Origin: Alistipes sp.
GTDB taxonomy: Bacteria; Bacillota; Clostridia; Oscillospirales; Ruminococcaceae
Length of the DNA stretch: 64,000 nt
Direction of reading: 5' to 3'
Assembly (NCBI GenBank): GCA_023667265.1
Contig: JAMPAJ010000001.1
Location: 969,602 to 1,033,601, forward strand
The position numbers and the translations under genes were made by a program. Every line of letters starts with the position of its first letter. Position 1 is the first letter of the stretch. Below are positions 2,517 to 56,680 of this stretch, one piece after another. The notes under the pieces were generated by a model. It was not told the origin of the DNA. It saw nothing but the letters and a program-made list of their open reading frames with translations, and ran no database searches.

Positions 2517-2554
2517 TATCATAACCGAAAAAAATTCAAACCAGGAATTTATAA

Positions 2555-2735
2555 GGGGACGCTCTCTCTTGCAGAGCGTCCCCTCTTTCAAAACAGTCCC
2601 CCGGACTGTTTTGAAATTCACCCCTTGCAGAGCGCCTGAAGGCATCATCGACGTTCCGTCGATATGGAGCTCTGCTCCATACCTCGCCAAAGGCTCTGCC
2701 TCTGGACTTCGCAAAAGGGACAACCGTCCCTTTTG
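2555..2735 (+). repeat. Six-hairpin interspersed element, copy A
   Basis: Six successive hairpins: H1 2555-2583 (arms GGGGACGCTCT/AGAGCGTCCCC), H2 2586-2616 (14-bp stem, arm TTTCAAAACAGTCC), H3 2647-2663 (ATCGACG/CGTCGAT), H4 2664-2680 (ATGGAGC/GCTCCAT), H5 2687-2705 (imperfect), H6 2712-2735 (CAAAAGGGAC/GTCCCTTTTG). The same series recurs at 9442-9622, 9777-9957, 14909-15036, 53780-54014 and 56442-56621. It fills most of the 430-base gap between 2516 and 2947 and lies between the last stop codon and the operon terminator, so it is probably transcribed as 3' UTR. Small open frames across it are chance by-products. Confidence 0.9.
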
Positions 2736-2778
2736 AAACCCGGTGTTCGGCTTCGCGCAGACCATTTGAGCTTTTTAT

Positions 2779-9415: not shown

Positions 9416-9441
9416 CCCCAGCAAGCGTAAGCATTGGGTTT

Positions 9442-9716
9442 CAAAAGGGACGGTTGTCCCTTTTGCGAAGTCCAGAGGCAGAGCCTTTGGCGAGGTATGG
9501 AGCAGAGCTCCATATTGACCGCAGGTCAATGATGCCTTTAGGCGCTCCGCAAAGGGTGAATTTTATAACAGTCCAGTGGACTGTTATAAAAGAGGGAACG
9601 CCCTGCAAGAGAGGGCGTTCCCTTGTGGGGCAGCCCCCACAGGCAGTTTCACGTAGCCGCGAGTACCTCGCTGATTTATTTTACTGACGTAGATATTCCG
9701 CGAGCGATATAATTTT
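9442..9716 (-). repeat. Six-hairpin element, copy B, with second module M7
   Basis: Read on the + strand: H6 9442-9465, H5 9472-9490, H4 9497-9513, H3 9514-9530 (ATTGACC/GGTCAAT), H2 9561-9591 (arm TTTTATAACAGTCC), H1 9594-9622 (arms GGGAACGCCCT/AGGGCGTTCCC). It continues with module M7 to about 9716: a GTGGGG/CCCCAC hairpin, GCGAGTACCTCGC and a CCGCGAGCGATATAAT end. Stem changes relative to copy A are paired on both arms. It lies between the nfnB stop and its terminator, i.e. in the 3' UTR. Confidence 0.88.
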
Positions 9717-9750
9717 CCTCCCCGGATGAAAGGGGAGGATTTTTTCTATT
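9717..9750 (+). terminator. Intrinsic terminator of the nfnAB operon
   Basis: Stem CCTCCCC/GGGGAGG (9717-9738) followed by ATTTTTT. Confidence 0.8.
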
Positions 9751-9776
9751 TTTTTGAATTTGCAGTGGAAATATTA

Positions 9777-9957
9777 GGGGACGCTCTCTCTTGCAGAGCG
9801 TCCCCTCTGTCAAAACAGTCCACCGGACTGTTTTGACATTCACCCCTTGCAGGGCGCCTAAAGGCTGCATCGACGTTCCGTCGATATGGGACTCTGTCCC
9901 ATGCCCTGCCAGAGGCTCTGCCTCTGGACTTCGCAAAAGGGACAACCGTCCCTTTTG
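9777..9957 (+). repeat. Six-hairpin element, copy C
   Basis: H1 9777-9805, H2 9808-9838 (outer pairs TGTC/GACA instead of TTTC/GAAA), H3 9869-9885, H4 9886-9902 (ATGGGAC/GTCCCAT), H5 9909-9927 (perfect CCAGAGGC/GCCTCTGG), H6 9934-9957. It is opposite in orientation to copy B, 60 bases away across the nfn terminator, and lies just upstream of the first cellulase promoter. Confidence 0.9.
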
Positions 9958-10029
9958 AAACCCAGTGTCCACGCTTGCGGTTTTTTTTATTATTGCAATA
10001 TGAATTTCCAGCACATTTTCAGTTTTTCC

Positions 10030-14671: not shown

Positions 14672-14793
14672 CCGGAACATAGATGTGCAGGCTGGCTGCG
14701 GCACACGAGACGATCCGCTTAATGCTGCTCGGTCTCCCGCCTGACATGGTTCACGGTGTCTTGTTGCACAGGGCCCGCACATCTATATTCCGG
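14672..14793 (-). ncRNA. ffs: Signal recognition particle RNA (small bacterial type)
   Basis: The ends CCGGAATATAGATGTGC and GCACATCTATGTTCCGG pair to close a long rod of about 122 nt. The apical domain, read on the minus strand, has GTGAACCATGTCAGG, a CGGGAGACCG hairpin with a GNRA-type GAGA loop, and GAGCAGCATTAAGC, matching the conserved SRP domain IV asymmetric and symmetric loops that bind Ffh. It lies directly upstream of dnaX, a common arrangement in Firmicutes. No extended Alu domain is seen, so this is the short form. Boundaries are accurate to a few bases. Confidence 0.9.
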
Positions 14794-14855: not shown

Positions 14856-14908
14856 GGATTTTTTTCACATAACAACAAACATCACCGGCAAGTGTAAGCA
14901 TTGGGATT

Positions 14909-15214
14909 CCAAAGGGACGGTTGTCCCTTTGGCAGAGTCCAGAGGCAGAGCCTCTGGCAGGGTATGGGACAGAGTCCCATATCGACGGAACGTCGATGTT
15001 TACTTTATGCGCTCTGCAAGAGAGAGCCGCCCCTTAGACTTTTCCAGCAAATTCAAAAAGGCAGAAAAATCTCCTCTGTTATTTGGGAAGGAAAATTATA
15101 TCGCTCGCGGAATATTTACTTCTGCAAAATAAATTAGCGAGATACTCGCGGCTGCGTGAAACTGCCCGTGGGGGCTGCCCCACAAGGGAACGCCCTGCAA
15201 GAGAGGGCGTTCCC
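14909..15214. repeat. Composite copy D of the hairpin element
   Basis: H6 14909-14932 (CCAAAGGGAC arms), H5 14939-14957, H4 14964-14980, H3 14981-14997 (ATCGACG arms). H2 is absent and H1 is degraded near 15010-15036. After about 60 bases the M7 module appears in the opposite orientation (GCTCGCGG near 15103, GCGAGATACTCGC, GTGGGGGCTGCCCCAC), followed by an intact H1 at 15186-15214. It looks like two truncated elements joined in inverted orientation. It fills the gap between the SRP RNA promoter and the end of the leucine-rich-repeat operon. Confidence 0.85.
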
Positions 15215-19108: not shown

Positions 19109-19249
19109 CCTATCGCTCGCGGAATAAACACGGTCAGCATAAAAAATCAGCGAGGCACTCGCGGTCACGTGAATTGCCAGCGGGGGCTCCCCGCCGTGAA
19201 TCGCCAGCGGGGGCTCCCCGCCGTGAATTGCCAGCGGGGGCTCCCCGCC
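19109..19249 (-). repeat. M7 module with a 27-bp unit repeated three times
   Basis: GCTCGCGGAATA near 19109 and GCGAGGCACTCGC near 19150 are followed by three 27-bp units starting at 19169, 19196 and 19223, each holding a GCGGGGGCTCCCCGC hairpin after GTGAAYTGCCA. Elsewhere (9623-9716, 15100-15182, 27488-27566, 56622-56680) the module has only one such hairpin. It lies 3' of the ABC exporter operon. Confidence 0.85.
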
Positions 19250-20806: not shown

Positions 20807-20840
20807 AAATACTCCTAATCAGATTTTTATATCAATCTTT

Positions 20841-24232: not shown

Positions 24233-25843
24233 TTATTCTATTTCCGGCAGAGACGGTATCTCAGCCGCGTTCTCCCGGACTGTCTTTTTCGCCTGCATAT
24301 ACTCCGGCAGTTCAATTTTATCCAGCTCGCTTTCGTAGGGGTTCACCTTTTTGGGCAGAGCCTCCACAGCGTGATCGGCTTGTGCCATAAGAGCTTCCTT
24401 GTGCTCCGGAATATACTCTTCAAGAGCGTCGGCATTGACCTCCCCCGAAGCCTGCATCGACACACGCGACCGGACGTTCATCGCCGAGGCAAGCTTGCTT
24501 GCGTCCACCTCATGGGTCATTCCCATTTCGCCCTTGTGCTTTTTTCCCGAACCGACAGTCAGGTCTGCGGAGGGCGCGCCTCCGGTCTGTCTCATATACA
24601 TCTTATTTATAACATCGGGCGTATTGGCTGCCAGCTTCGAGCCGTCAACGACAGGCGTAGATCCCATAGACCCCATTTCCTGCTGCTTCTGTTTAAGACG
24701 CTGTTTCCGCCTGTTGTCAATGTCAGCGAAGGGATCGGAGGAGGTGTCGGGTTCAGCTGTCTGCGCCTTGCCGAAAAAGTCGTCGATCTCCGGGGCTGGT
24801 TCATGCTTTTTACCCTTGTCGCCGTCGAAGAACGCCCAGAAATCATCGCCGCCCTTTTTCTTCTCCTGCTTTTCGGGAACAGCGTCGGGCATACCCGGTA
24901 TACCGCCCATTTGCGGCACAGGCTGCGTCTGCGGCATCCCTGGCATACCGTTCATCTGGGGCATACCAATAGGCTGGGGCTGAATCGGCTGCTGAGGCTG
25001 AAGCATAGGCTGCTGCATTACAGGCTGGGGCTGACCATAGACAGGCTGACCGTTCTGGTCATAGCCGATTATCTGGGGCTGAGCGAACATCATCTGCTGG
25101 GGCTGACCATAGACAGGCTGACCGTTCTGGTCATAGCCGATTATCTGGGGCTGAGCGAACATCATCTGCTGGGGCTGTCCATATATAGGCATGCCGTTCT
25201 GGTCATAGCCGATTATCTGGGGCTGGGCGAACATCATCTGCGGCTGACCGTAGATAGGCATACCGCTCTGGTCATAGCCGATTATCTGCGGCTGTGCATA
25301 CATTGCCTGCTGATTCATATACATACCCTGCATACCGCCCATTTGCGGCATATGTCCCATTCCCTGCATACCGTTCATCTGCTGCATACTCTGCATGTTT
25401 CCGGGCTGTGGCATACCCATAGGCTGAGGCATACCCGGCATACTGCCCATTTGCGGCATACCCATATGCTGCTGAAGAGGCACACCGTTAGGGTGAACAG
25501 GCTGCTGCGGCTGGGACGCAGGCTTCGGCGGAATCGGATTCAGGGCTGGGATAGCCGGATCGTCGTACATACTGAAATCAAATTCCTCTTCGGAGCGGTT
25601 AAGTTCGTCGGCAGTATAGAGGCTGTCGGAAGCCGGAGTAGGAGGGGCTGTATCACGAATAACGAAAGTTCCGGTGTCCATAGTGAAGCCACCTGAATTT
25701 TCGGGGTATTCCTCCTCCGAATGGTAGTTGCCCATATCCACCTGCTCATAGTTTACTTCCTGAGGATTTACGAGGCTTCCGCCGCATTTGACGCAAAACT
25801 TGAATCCCTTTTCATTTTCTGTTCCGCAAACGCTGCAAATCAT
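24233..25843 (-). CDS. Zinc-ribbon protein with Gln/Met/Pro-rich repeats
   Basis: 536 residues from the ATG at 25843 (MICSVCGTENEKGFKFCVKC), 9 bases behind GGAAGGAG; a TTG at 25852 would touch the ribosome site. The N-terminal double CxxC zinc ribbon is followed by an acidic region, then a Met/Pro/Gln/Gly-rich stretch (about 110-330) with four 23-24-residue repeats (QPQIIGYDQNGQPVYGQPQ), then a charged C-terminal third. No membrane helix is found. The repeat motif matches GYDASGQPV in the protein ending at 1412. Own promoter. Function unknown; a scaffold or condensate-forming protein is only a guess. Confidence 0.8.
   Translation of the reverse strand: MICSVCGTENEKGFKFCVKCGGSLVNPQEVNYEQVDMGNYHSEEEYPENSGGFTMDTGTFVIRDTAPPTPASDSLYTADELNRSEEEFDFSMYDDPAIPALNPIPPKPASQPQQPVHPNGVPLQQHMGMPQMGSMPGMPQPMGMPQPGNMQSMQQMNGMQGMGHMPQMGGMQGMYMNQQAMYAQPQIIGYDQSGMPIYGQPQMMFAQPQIIGYDQNGMPIYGQPQQMMFAQPQIIGYDQNGQPVYGQPQQMMFAQPQIIGYDQNGQPVYGQPQPVMQQPMLQPQQPIQPQPIGMPQMNGMPGMPQTQPVPQMGGIPGMPDAVPEKQEKKKGGDDFWAFFDGDKGKKHEPAPEIDDFFGKAQTAEPDTSSDPFADIDNRRKQRLKQKQQEMGSMGSTPVVDGSKLAANTPDVINKMYMRQTGGAPSADLTVGSGKKHKGEMGMTHEVDASKLASAMNVRSRVSMQASGEVNADALEEYIPEHKEALMAQADHAVEALPKKVNPYESELDKIELPEYMQAKKTVRENAAEIPSLPEIE
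25020..25300 (-). repeat. 72-bp tandem repeat in the zinc-ribbon gene
   Basis: The identical core GTTCTGGTCATAGCCGAT recurs at 25052, 25124 and 25196, with a variant at 25265: spacings of 72, 72 and 69 bases. In protein these are four units of IIGYDQNGxPxYGQPQ. Confidence 0.88.
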
Positions 25844-27487: not shown

Positions 27488-27566
27488 GCTCGCGGCAAAA
27501 ACTACCCTAACTAACAAATCAGCGAGGTACTCGCGGTCACGTGAATCGCCAGCGGGGGCTCCCCGC
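27488..27566 (-). repeat. Single M7 module
   Basis: GCTCGCGG, then GCGAGGTACTCGC, CACGTGAATCGCCA and the GCGGGGGCTCCCCGC hairpin, as at 19109-19195. It lies just beyond the secF terminator. Confidence 0.82.
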
Positions 27567-53779: not shown

Positions 53780-54014
53780 AGGGAACGCCCTCTCTTGCAG
53801 GGCGCACTACGTGCCTGCCCTTTTGTCGCTTCGCGACATTTCCCCACACTGTGGGGAATCACCTCTTTCAAAACAGTCCACCGGACTGTTTTGAAATTCA
53901 CCCTTTGCGGAGCGCCTAAAGGCATCATCGACGTTCCGTCGATATGGGACTCTGTCCCATACCCTGCCAAAGGCGCTGCCTCTGGACTCTGCAAAAGGGA
54001 CATTGTCCCTTTTG
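53780..54014 (+). repeat. Six-hairpin element, copy E, with inserted hairpins
   Basis: A modified H1 at 53780-53803 is followed by three extra small hairpins (GGGCGCACTACGTGCC, TGTCGCTTCGCGACA, TTCCCCACACTGTGGGGAA). Then come H2 53866-53896, H3 53927-53943, H4 53944-53960, H5 53967-53985 (imperfect) and H6 53992-54014 with a shorter loop (ATT). It lies beyond the terminator of the third cellulase and upstream of the second cellulase promoter. Confidence 0.88.
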
Positions 54015-54030
54015 AAACCCGATGTTTACC

Positions 54031-56300: not shown

Positions 56301-56441
56301 GAGATTTTGTTAAAATTGCCGGATTTTCGGCGTAGAAAAAAACGCTTAAATTTTAGGCGTTTTTAACAAAAAATATGGTGATTTAATTAATTTAAGCGAG
56401 CTGCAATAAAACTTCGAGTGAAACGCCAAAACATCGGGATT

Positions 56442-56680
56442 CAAAAGGGTCAATGACCCTTTTGCGAAGTCCAGAGGCAGCGCCTCTGGCAGGGTACGGG
56501 ACAGAGTCCCGTATCGACCGTAGGTCGATGATGCCTTCAGGCGCTCCGCAAAGGGTGAATTTTGTAACAGTCCAGTGGACTGTTACAAAAGAGGGAACGC
56601 CCTGCAAGAGAGGGCGTTCCCTTGTGGGGCAGCCCCACGGGCAGTTTCACGTAGCCGCGAGTACCTCGCTAATAAACTAT
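56442..56680 (-). repeat. Six-hairpin element, copy F, with M7
   Basis: On the + strand: H6 56442-56464 (CAAAAGGGTC/GACCC... compensated pair), H5 56471-56489, H4 56495-56513 (ACGGGAC/GTCCCGT), H3 56513-56529 (ATCGACC/GGTCGAT), H2 56560-56590 (arm TTTTGTAACAGTCC), H1 56593-56621, then M7 (GTGGGGCAGCCCCAC, GCGAGTACCTCGC) to about 56680. The element plus neighbouring palindromes fill the 670-base gap between the third cellulase and the next gene. Confidence 0.88.

Follow-up and report, generated by a model that had tools for sequence, protein, structure and literature searches.

A high-copy intergenic repeat of Ruminococcus that pairs on one strand into a row of hairpins with linkers mirroring the stem arms

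The stretch of 64,000 nucleotides analysed here (the window) holds six copies of a chromosomal repeat family that is present in dozens of copies per genome, lies between genes and pairs, on one identifiable strand, into a row of hairpins whose linkers vary together with the stem arms. The repeat appears to have neither an annotation nor an earlier description: none was found in the open-licence literature, in which only the work on PIT/TMECO elements came close. We give about an even chance to the reading that it combines class I intrastrand-triplex hairpins in a mosaic of the REP/BIME type, which would work as folded single-stranded DNA (ssDNA).

A first-pass annotation of the window had described six copies sharing the same order of six hairpins. 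All six copies are found at the places given there, and the arm variants quoted for H2, H3, H4 and H6 were correct on re-reading. The shared order needs amendment in two respects, as only four copies (a, b, c and f) contain all six hairpins, and the order agrees only after reverse-complementing, copies b, d and f (at about 9436, 14898 and 56430) being oriented oppositely to a, c and e (at about 2550, 9772 and 53859). The sequence GAAGTCCAGAGGCAG, with up to two mismatches allowed, occurs six times in the window versus a mean of 0.20 in shuffles, and the conserved unit takes in the linkers too, from GGGWTT before H6 through the end of H1. Copies b and c make up an inverted pair in which the two H1 ends face each other. 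Among the matches listed, H3 was missing from 22 of 27 copies in relatives. The features, in window coordinates and with the strand that folds, are as follows.

2554..2741, minus strand: copy a, complete
2554-2584, minus strand: copy a, hairpin H1
2586-2616, minus strand: copy a, hairpin H2
2617-2635, minus strand: copy a, linker Y
2647-2663, minus strand: copy a, hairpin H3
2664-2680, minus strand: copy a, hairpin H4
2687-2705, minus strand: copy a, hairpin H5
2712-2735, minus strand: copy a, hairpin H6
2736-2741, minus strand: copy a, putative third strand GGGTTT
9436..9623, plus strand: copy b, complete; left arm of the inverted pair
9436..9441, plus strand: copy b, putative third strand GGGTTT for H6 (arm AAAGGG)
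9442..9465, plus strand: copy b, hairpin H6
9465..9471, plus strand: copy b, linker GCGAAGT, putative third strand for H5
9472..9490, plus strand: copy b, hairpin H5
9491..9495, plus strand: copy b, linker X (CGAGG), mirror of the H4 arm GGAGC
9497..9513, plus strand: copy b, hairpin H4
9514..9530, plus strand: copy b, hairpin H3 (optional)
9542..9560, plus strand: copy b, linker Y, mirror-coupled to the H1 arm across H2
9561..9591, plus strand: copy b, hairpin H2, outer stem variable
9593..9623, plus strand: copy b, hairpin H1
9624..9775, no strand assigned: middle module between inverted arms b and c, with hairpins of its own
9776..9963, minus strand: copy c, complete; right arm of the inverted pair
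14903..15023, plus strand: copy d, partial, with H6, H5, H4, H3 and a fused Y/H1 remnant; H2 lost
53780-53804: copy e, 5' part of H1
53866..54020, minus strand: copy e, H2 to H6 and GGGTTT complete; H1 3' arm replaced
56436..56622, plus strand: copy f, complete

Several other elements of the window may be recorded here. The middle module contains a promoter-like match (CTGACG-18-TATAAT, 9684-9713) followed directly by a terminator-like hairpin and a T run (9716-9739; window 9684-9746 together), as if the two yielded a very short transcript. A bacterial small SRP RNA (14682-14780, minus strand, 59.6 bits) adjoins the partial copy d. A further interspersed repeat of ~53 nt, GCAACCCACGCGG or close variants, lies at 20835, 22029, 27375 and 60856, and tandem repeats with periods of 57, 21 and 69-72 occur within called coding sequence at 4-325, 552-698 and 25024-25308.

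The repeat is widespread. In its own Ruminococcus genome, blastn with copy a, for which 40 of 82 candidates were scored, returned at least 57 matches, and E was 3e-30 or lower for at least 44 of these. For a covariance model, 44 copies were then aligned, namely 43 of the blastn matches at E 3e-30 or better and window copy d, the interrupted copy C11:851434 being left out. The search with such a model that the first-pass annotation had proposed gave at least 79 matches at E 1e-3 or better in this genome, at least 57 of them above 113 bits, and these counts are lower bounds because 150 of 961 candidates were scored. Extended to the relatives, it found matches in at least 92 of 125 genomes of the genus and in 52 of the 68 good assemblies, with 20 candidates scored per genome under stricter filters, so that some genomes may have been missed. 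Within the family, 58 of the 248 genomes sampled and 32 of the 115 genera had the repeat; Y-H2-H1 is retained in the copies listed from other genera, many of which have other hairpins ahead of it. Blastn against phage and plasmid records gave no phage and no plasmid match to the repeat, and a search with the core pattern matched one viral contig. For a protein encoded nearby, the named relatives with the best scores are from Ruminococcus, including R. flavefaciens.

The stems had been proposed to be paired through compensatory changes, and this holds in the 44 own-genome copies, in which 99.8% of 2417 cells are paired. Changes on both sides were seen at 18 pairs, amounting to 196 cells. The covariation score was 0.222 versus 0.087 in shuffles, none of which reached it, and at most 0.061 for slid structures; these shuffle and slide controls do not fully remove the relatedness of the 44 copies. 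Further pair types were no more frequent than in shuffles of the same copies (183/500). The repeat is real, its stems are paired and the fold is kept.

The strand that folds is the reverse of the one on which the repeat was first read, and runs from H6 to H1. On this strand the 44 own copies have 40 G.U cells at 10 pair positions, no A.C and five other mismatches, whereas on the first-read strand the tolerated transition mismatches are A.C. The predicted energy was lower on the H6-to-H1 strand in all 44 copies (mean -98.6 versus -91.8 kcal/mol), and RNAalifold on the first-read strand gave a weaker and partly different fold. Counted on alignment A5, from which 2 of 102 rows (partial matches) were left out, 100 copies from 27 other genomes had 5157 Watson-Crick, 38 G.U, 7 A.C and 26 other cells. 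A hairpin-by-hairpin recount of the parsed copies in relatives (H1, H2, H4, H5 and H6) gave 13 G.U versus 3 A.C types. When the own genome and the relatives were taken together there were 23 G.U and 3 A.C mismatch types (P=9e-5), or 18 and 3 when types common to both sets were counted once (P=0.0015).

The linkers co-vary with the 5' stem arms in mirror order, each linker being the mirror image of the arm and not its complement. Two variable columns of linker X track H4 in all 44 own copies, GGAGC occurring with CGAGG and GGGAC with CAGGG. Among 139 cleanly parsed copies from the own genome and relatives (one row was set aside, and four rows misread as TCCCA/AGAGC were left out), arm GGGAC was accompanied by linker CAGGG in 82 of 82 cases and arm GGAGC by CGAGG in 16 of 16; the linkers of arm GGGGC were TGGGG (24), CAGGG (8), TAGGG (6) and CGGGG (1), and two rarer forms made up the remainder. 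Linker Y mirrors the H1 arm although the variable hairpin H2 separates them. In 138 copies the fourth purine of Y and H1 was GG in 74, AA in 63 and AG in one, y3-z1 was CC in 83, TT in 48 and otherwise in 7, and y2-z2 was CC in 117, TT in 20 and TC in one. Y shared 0.98-1.00 bit with three columns of H1 and 0.76 with the fourth, versus 0.24-0.43 bit with the intervening H2 columns and about 0 with H4, H5 and H6. Over all registers, mirror identity was the best of four relations (z 16.0 for H1, 13.2 to 13.4 for H4 and 5.4 for H5, the X-H4 scan including the four misread rows); on distinct haplotypes these values dropped to 7.7, 3.3-3.5 and 1.6, respectively, which counts against the proposed reading. 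Watson-Crick pairing of linkers with stem arms, tried in all registers, explained less than mirror identity and was rejected. Both states of the fourth purine were present in 4 of the 27 genomes counted; they agreed between Y and H1 in 14 of 14 copies in the sister genome G079 and in 40 of 41 in G000, and in both G010 and G027 the two copies agreed at all three positions. With regard to the family sample, in which 45 of 79 loci could be oriented, the Y-H1 purine tetrad mirrored exactly in 32 of 40 parsed copies from other genera, and seven of the eight failures had linker A over arm G.

The linker rule resembles that of a purine-motif (reverse-Hoogsteen) third strand, with leaks: G stands over G-C, and A or T over A-T. 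GGGWTT precedes H6, whose arm is mostly AAAGGG, which would put T, T and A/T over A-T and G over G-C; the H6 arm AAAGGC is preceded by CGGATT, and the exceptions at H6 include GGGATT before AAAGGA in three copies. In other genera CGGAT, CGGTT and CGGAA are found ahead of arm AAGGC, and CAGGTG or TAGGTG ahead of GAGGGC. At H5 the linker has T instead of A over A-T six times at position 0 and seven times at position 1. For 283 distinct linker/arm pairs with purine-rich arms, agreement with the code was 0.647 versus 0.484 in shuffles (z 12.2, offset 2), compared with z 7.4 for mirror identity, 8.1 for the plain complement, -10.8 for a swapped code and 1.7 for other arms. The plain complement (T over A, C over G) owes its score to T over A, and the linker shuffle mixes hairpin classes, so that it tests class-level fit as well as covariation. 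At the same offset, arm A cells were matched by A in 185, T in 267, G in 172 and C in 20 cases (A or T in 452 of 644), and arm G cells by G in 456, A in 174, T in 95 and C in 35 (G in 456 of 760). Of the six positions in the H5 class, examined singly with Fisher's test, only k=3 was significant (P=3e-7); P ranged from 0.06 to 1 at the other five. The leak took the form of linker A over arm G in 55 of 128 cases at H5 position 3 and in 14 of 40 GGGG-type arms at X position 3. The small number of triads per hairpin (4-6) and the very short connecting loops also count against triads.

The order of linker, 5' arm and 3' arm fits a class I intrastrand triplex, defined as third strand, purine arm and pyrimidine arm in the excerpts of Holder et al. 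(2015, PMC4666352) on which we draw here and below, and the code fit is significant but leaky. Purine-motif triplexes are stated in the same excerpts to be unable to form in RNA, and hence ssDNA is favoured. We reason that T over A-T cannot represent the pyrimidine motif on the other strand; the excerpts argue similarly about strand coupling (PMC4666352). The G.U bias and T over A-T therefore pick the same strand, and T over A-T favours DNA. The first-pass annotation had allowed for ssDNA in place of RNA, and this option now fits better, given the linker code and the near-random orientation to transcription described below. A protein reading linker and stem together could mimic the triplex code, so that RNA keeps some probability.

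With regard to genomic placement, none of the 44 own copies overlapped a gene called by our codon-score gene caller by more than 60 bases, and 18 of them were convergent, 23 tandem and 3 divergent in placement. In other genomes, none of 42 loci showed such an overlap, and the 40 that could be classified were tandem (28), convergent (11) or divergent (1). Convergent sites were enriched (25/75) both over the gene pairs of the window, the one stretch that served as background (4/54, P=5e-4), and over window gaps of 50 bases or more (3/28, P=0.025), inverted pairs having been collapsed by hand for the site counts. Divergent sites (3/75) showed no clear depletion relative to the window gene pairs (P=0.45) or gaps (P=0.085). 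The upstream gene was co-directional in 31 of the 44 own copies. At tandem sites (15 own sites outside pairs, tallied by hand, and 28 others), 25 copies ran with the genes and 18 against them (P=0.36). The neighbouring gene therefore does not transcribe the folding strand of many copies, and the direction of the repeat relative to transcription is close to random. In one genome, G009, only 1 of 40 copies above 83 bits (62 matches) fell within the first 0.9 Mb, the terminus side as judged by base skew, a depletion with P=3e-4 for an interval picked after the data were viewed. The folding strand was the leading-strand template in 22 to 28 of these 40 copies, depending on where the origin is placed in a broad minimum. 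For IS200-type elements the opposite strand would be expected, which counts against the proposed reading.

Copies also turn over. All nine close inverted pairs in the 44-copy set have their H1 ends facing; among weaker matches, outside this count, C11:485596/485750 form a same-orientation pair. Copies b and f have orthologous copies in G079 (L235 and L159, respectively), with surroundings about 87% identical in the case of b, and the orthologues differ by whole coordinated alleles. At a further site, L010, the hairpins are rearranged in G079. No empty site with a target-site duplication was seen at the two G079 sites examined, which held other copies or rearranged hairpins instead. The site of copy a falls between two unjoined G079 contigs: the first ends in a left copy with no counterpart in the window and the second starts within a right copy, which makes a pair likely there. 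Several G079 contigs end inside or beside a copy. In named relatives (L044-L056), divergence was too great for the orthologous intergenic sites to be read. The allele differences and the rearrangement at L010 indicate that exchange between copies and rearrangement in place both occur. Neither process, taken by itself, would predict the strand bias or the third-strand code.

At locus L038 (2434-2725) a copy is interrupted inside H5 by ~107 bases of another module (insert at about 2587-2694), which resembles window modules at 19140 and 27512, and other modules may be mobile too. This second repeat module (window 19140-19248, 27512-27566 and 15127-15181) has hairpin units like GCCAGCGGGGGCTCCCCGC beside AGCGAGG..ACTCGCGG. 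The gene between the copies at C11:850371 and C11:851433 (L038) looks, on a candidate reading of its sequence, like a host membrane protein and not a transposase.

On the basis of these results we propose the following model. The repeat would be a high-copy, intergenic and non-coding mosaic whose H6-to-H1 strand, when single-stranded, folds into a row of hairpins. H6, H5, H4 and H1 would each receive a purine-rich third strand from the preceding linker, that of H1 being linker Y, which would reach across hairpin H2, and these third strands could lie antiparallel in the major groove as in a class I intrastrand triplex. The most likely mode of action is that the folded strand serves as the recognition form of a REP/BIME-like non-autonomous element, with a putative ssDNA-acting enzyme of the host or of the element copying or keeping the repeat. 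Selection on the folded form, together with exchange between copies, would keep stems and third strands matched. From the sequences we infer that triads may form, that the DNA may be exposed during replication or repair and that the repeat probably has a function. More tentatively, and at somewhat less than even chances, the element may be selected on its base triads throughout the family, with ssDNA triplexes as the working form in cells, read by ssDNA-processing machinery.

Three other explanations should be weighed against this model. The repeat might act as RNA, either as a structured 3' untranslated element or as a small RNA derived from the neighbouring gene, whose linkers are contacted by a protein without any triads. 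The G.U tolerance, the frequent co-directional upstream gene and the enrichment at convergent sites all point in this direction, but the near-random orientation at tandem sites does not, and the linker code is of the purine motif reported as impossible in RNA (PMC4666352, excerpts). In addition, although covariation-supported helices are a feature shared with the structured RNAs of Rfam, the repeat matches none of them: the first-pass annotation had recognised no named family, and in agreement with this an Rfam 15 search of the window found none at gathering score over the repeat, while a permissive search of the b/c pair gave weak matches only (E 0.06 or above). We consider an RNA role unlikely.

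It could also be supposed that the repeats are passive, template switching (quasipalindrome correction) perfecting the stems and gene conversion homogenising the copies around a functionless fold. The whole-allele differences between orthologues in G079 and the scrambled hairpins at L010 do show exchange and rearrangement; however, correction of arms is, by our own reasoning, strand-symmetric and so predicts no bias between G.U and A.C, nor is a third-strand coupling that skips H2 predicted. This makes passive maintenance rather improbable, and the original suggestion that the fold is maintained in a repeat that is not passive has gained support, on a far larger sample, from pairing, strand bias and linker coupling. 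Finally, a classical REP element mobilised by an RAYT/IS200-type Y1 transposase would share the intergenic position, the strand-specific hairpins, the mosaic modules and the inverted pairs with facing H1 ends. The enzyme search that had been suggested was unsuccessful in this respect: PF01797 (Y1/RAYT) had no match in the own genome (assembly 96.3% complete), and across the genus, where it occurs in 41 of 125 genomes, its association with the repeat was not significant (34 of 92 genomes with the repeat versus 7 of 33 without, P=0.13), which weakens the case for a Y1 transposase as partner. We know of no enzyme that mobilises the repeat, and a classical REP origin seems very unlikely to us.

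If the proposed ssDNA triplex model is true, the repeat would be evidence, drawn from evolution, that triple-stranded DNA occurs in a living lineage of gut bacteria. Natural third-strand covariation would be an independent line of evidence on whether intrastrand DNA triplexes matter in cells. With dozens of copies in each genome, the row of short and variable units would also offer ready-made compensatory variants for testing.

Among known systems, the REP/BIME elements with TnpA-REP (RAYT) are similar in being high-copy intergenic palindromes with mosaic inverted pairs in alternating orientation, and elements of this kind carry a GTAG or CGTC tag at the hairpin foot. The repeat described here differs from them in its length of about 188 nt, its five or six hairpins and the absence of a Y1 match in its own genome. 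Excerpts of published accounts describe strand-specific ssDNA recognition and extragenic palindromes for REP/BIME (PMC8266576, PMC2817692). The closest parallel is with the PIT/BoxC/TMECO elements as they appear in the excerpts of Holder et al. (2015, PMC4666352), which are likewise chromosomal and intergenic, show no strand bias to genes, include some inverted pairs and have no phage or plasmid association. Both have a purine-motif third strand on one DNA strand, inferred from sequence in the present case, and in both origin-side clustering was seen in one genome, G009 here and E. coli K-12 there; according to the excerpts (PMC4666352), the K-12 clustering was not seen in other strains. The text of that paper gave no hit for Ruminococcus, Faecalibacterium, Clostridi- or 'covari-', and names Enterococcus faecalis for A/T-rich motifs; the excerpts report that E. 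coli TMECO folds in vitro, with no stable triplex in vivo (PMC4666352). The TMECO consensus given there (class II, C-rich block first) was not matched by the repeat, from which it differs in order and sequence. According to the excerpts (PMC4666352), TMECO consists of a single 37-nt motif of class II (pyrimidine, purine, third strand), the consensus of which is fixed. The repeat of Ruminococcus would instead consist of several class I units (third strand first) that are chained with other hairpins and in which linker and arm co-vary.
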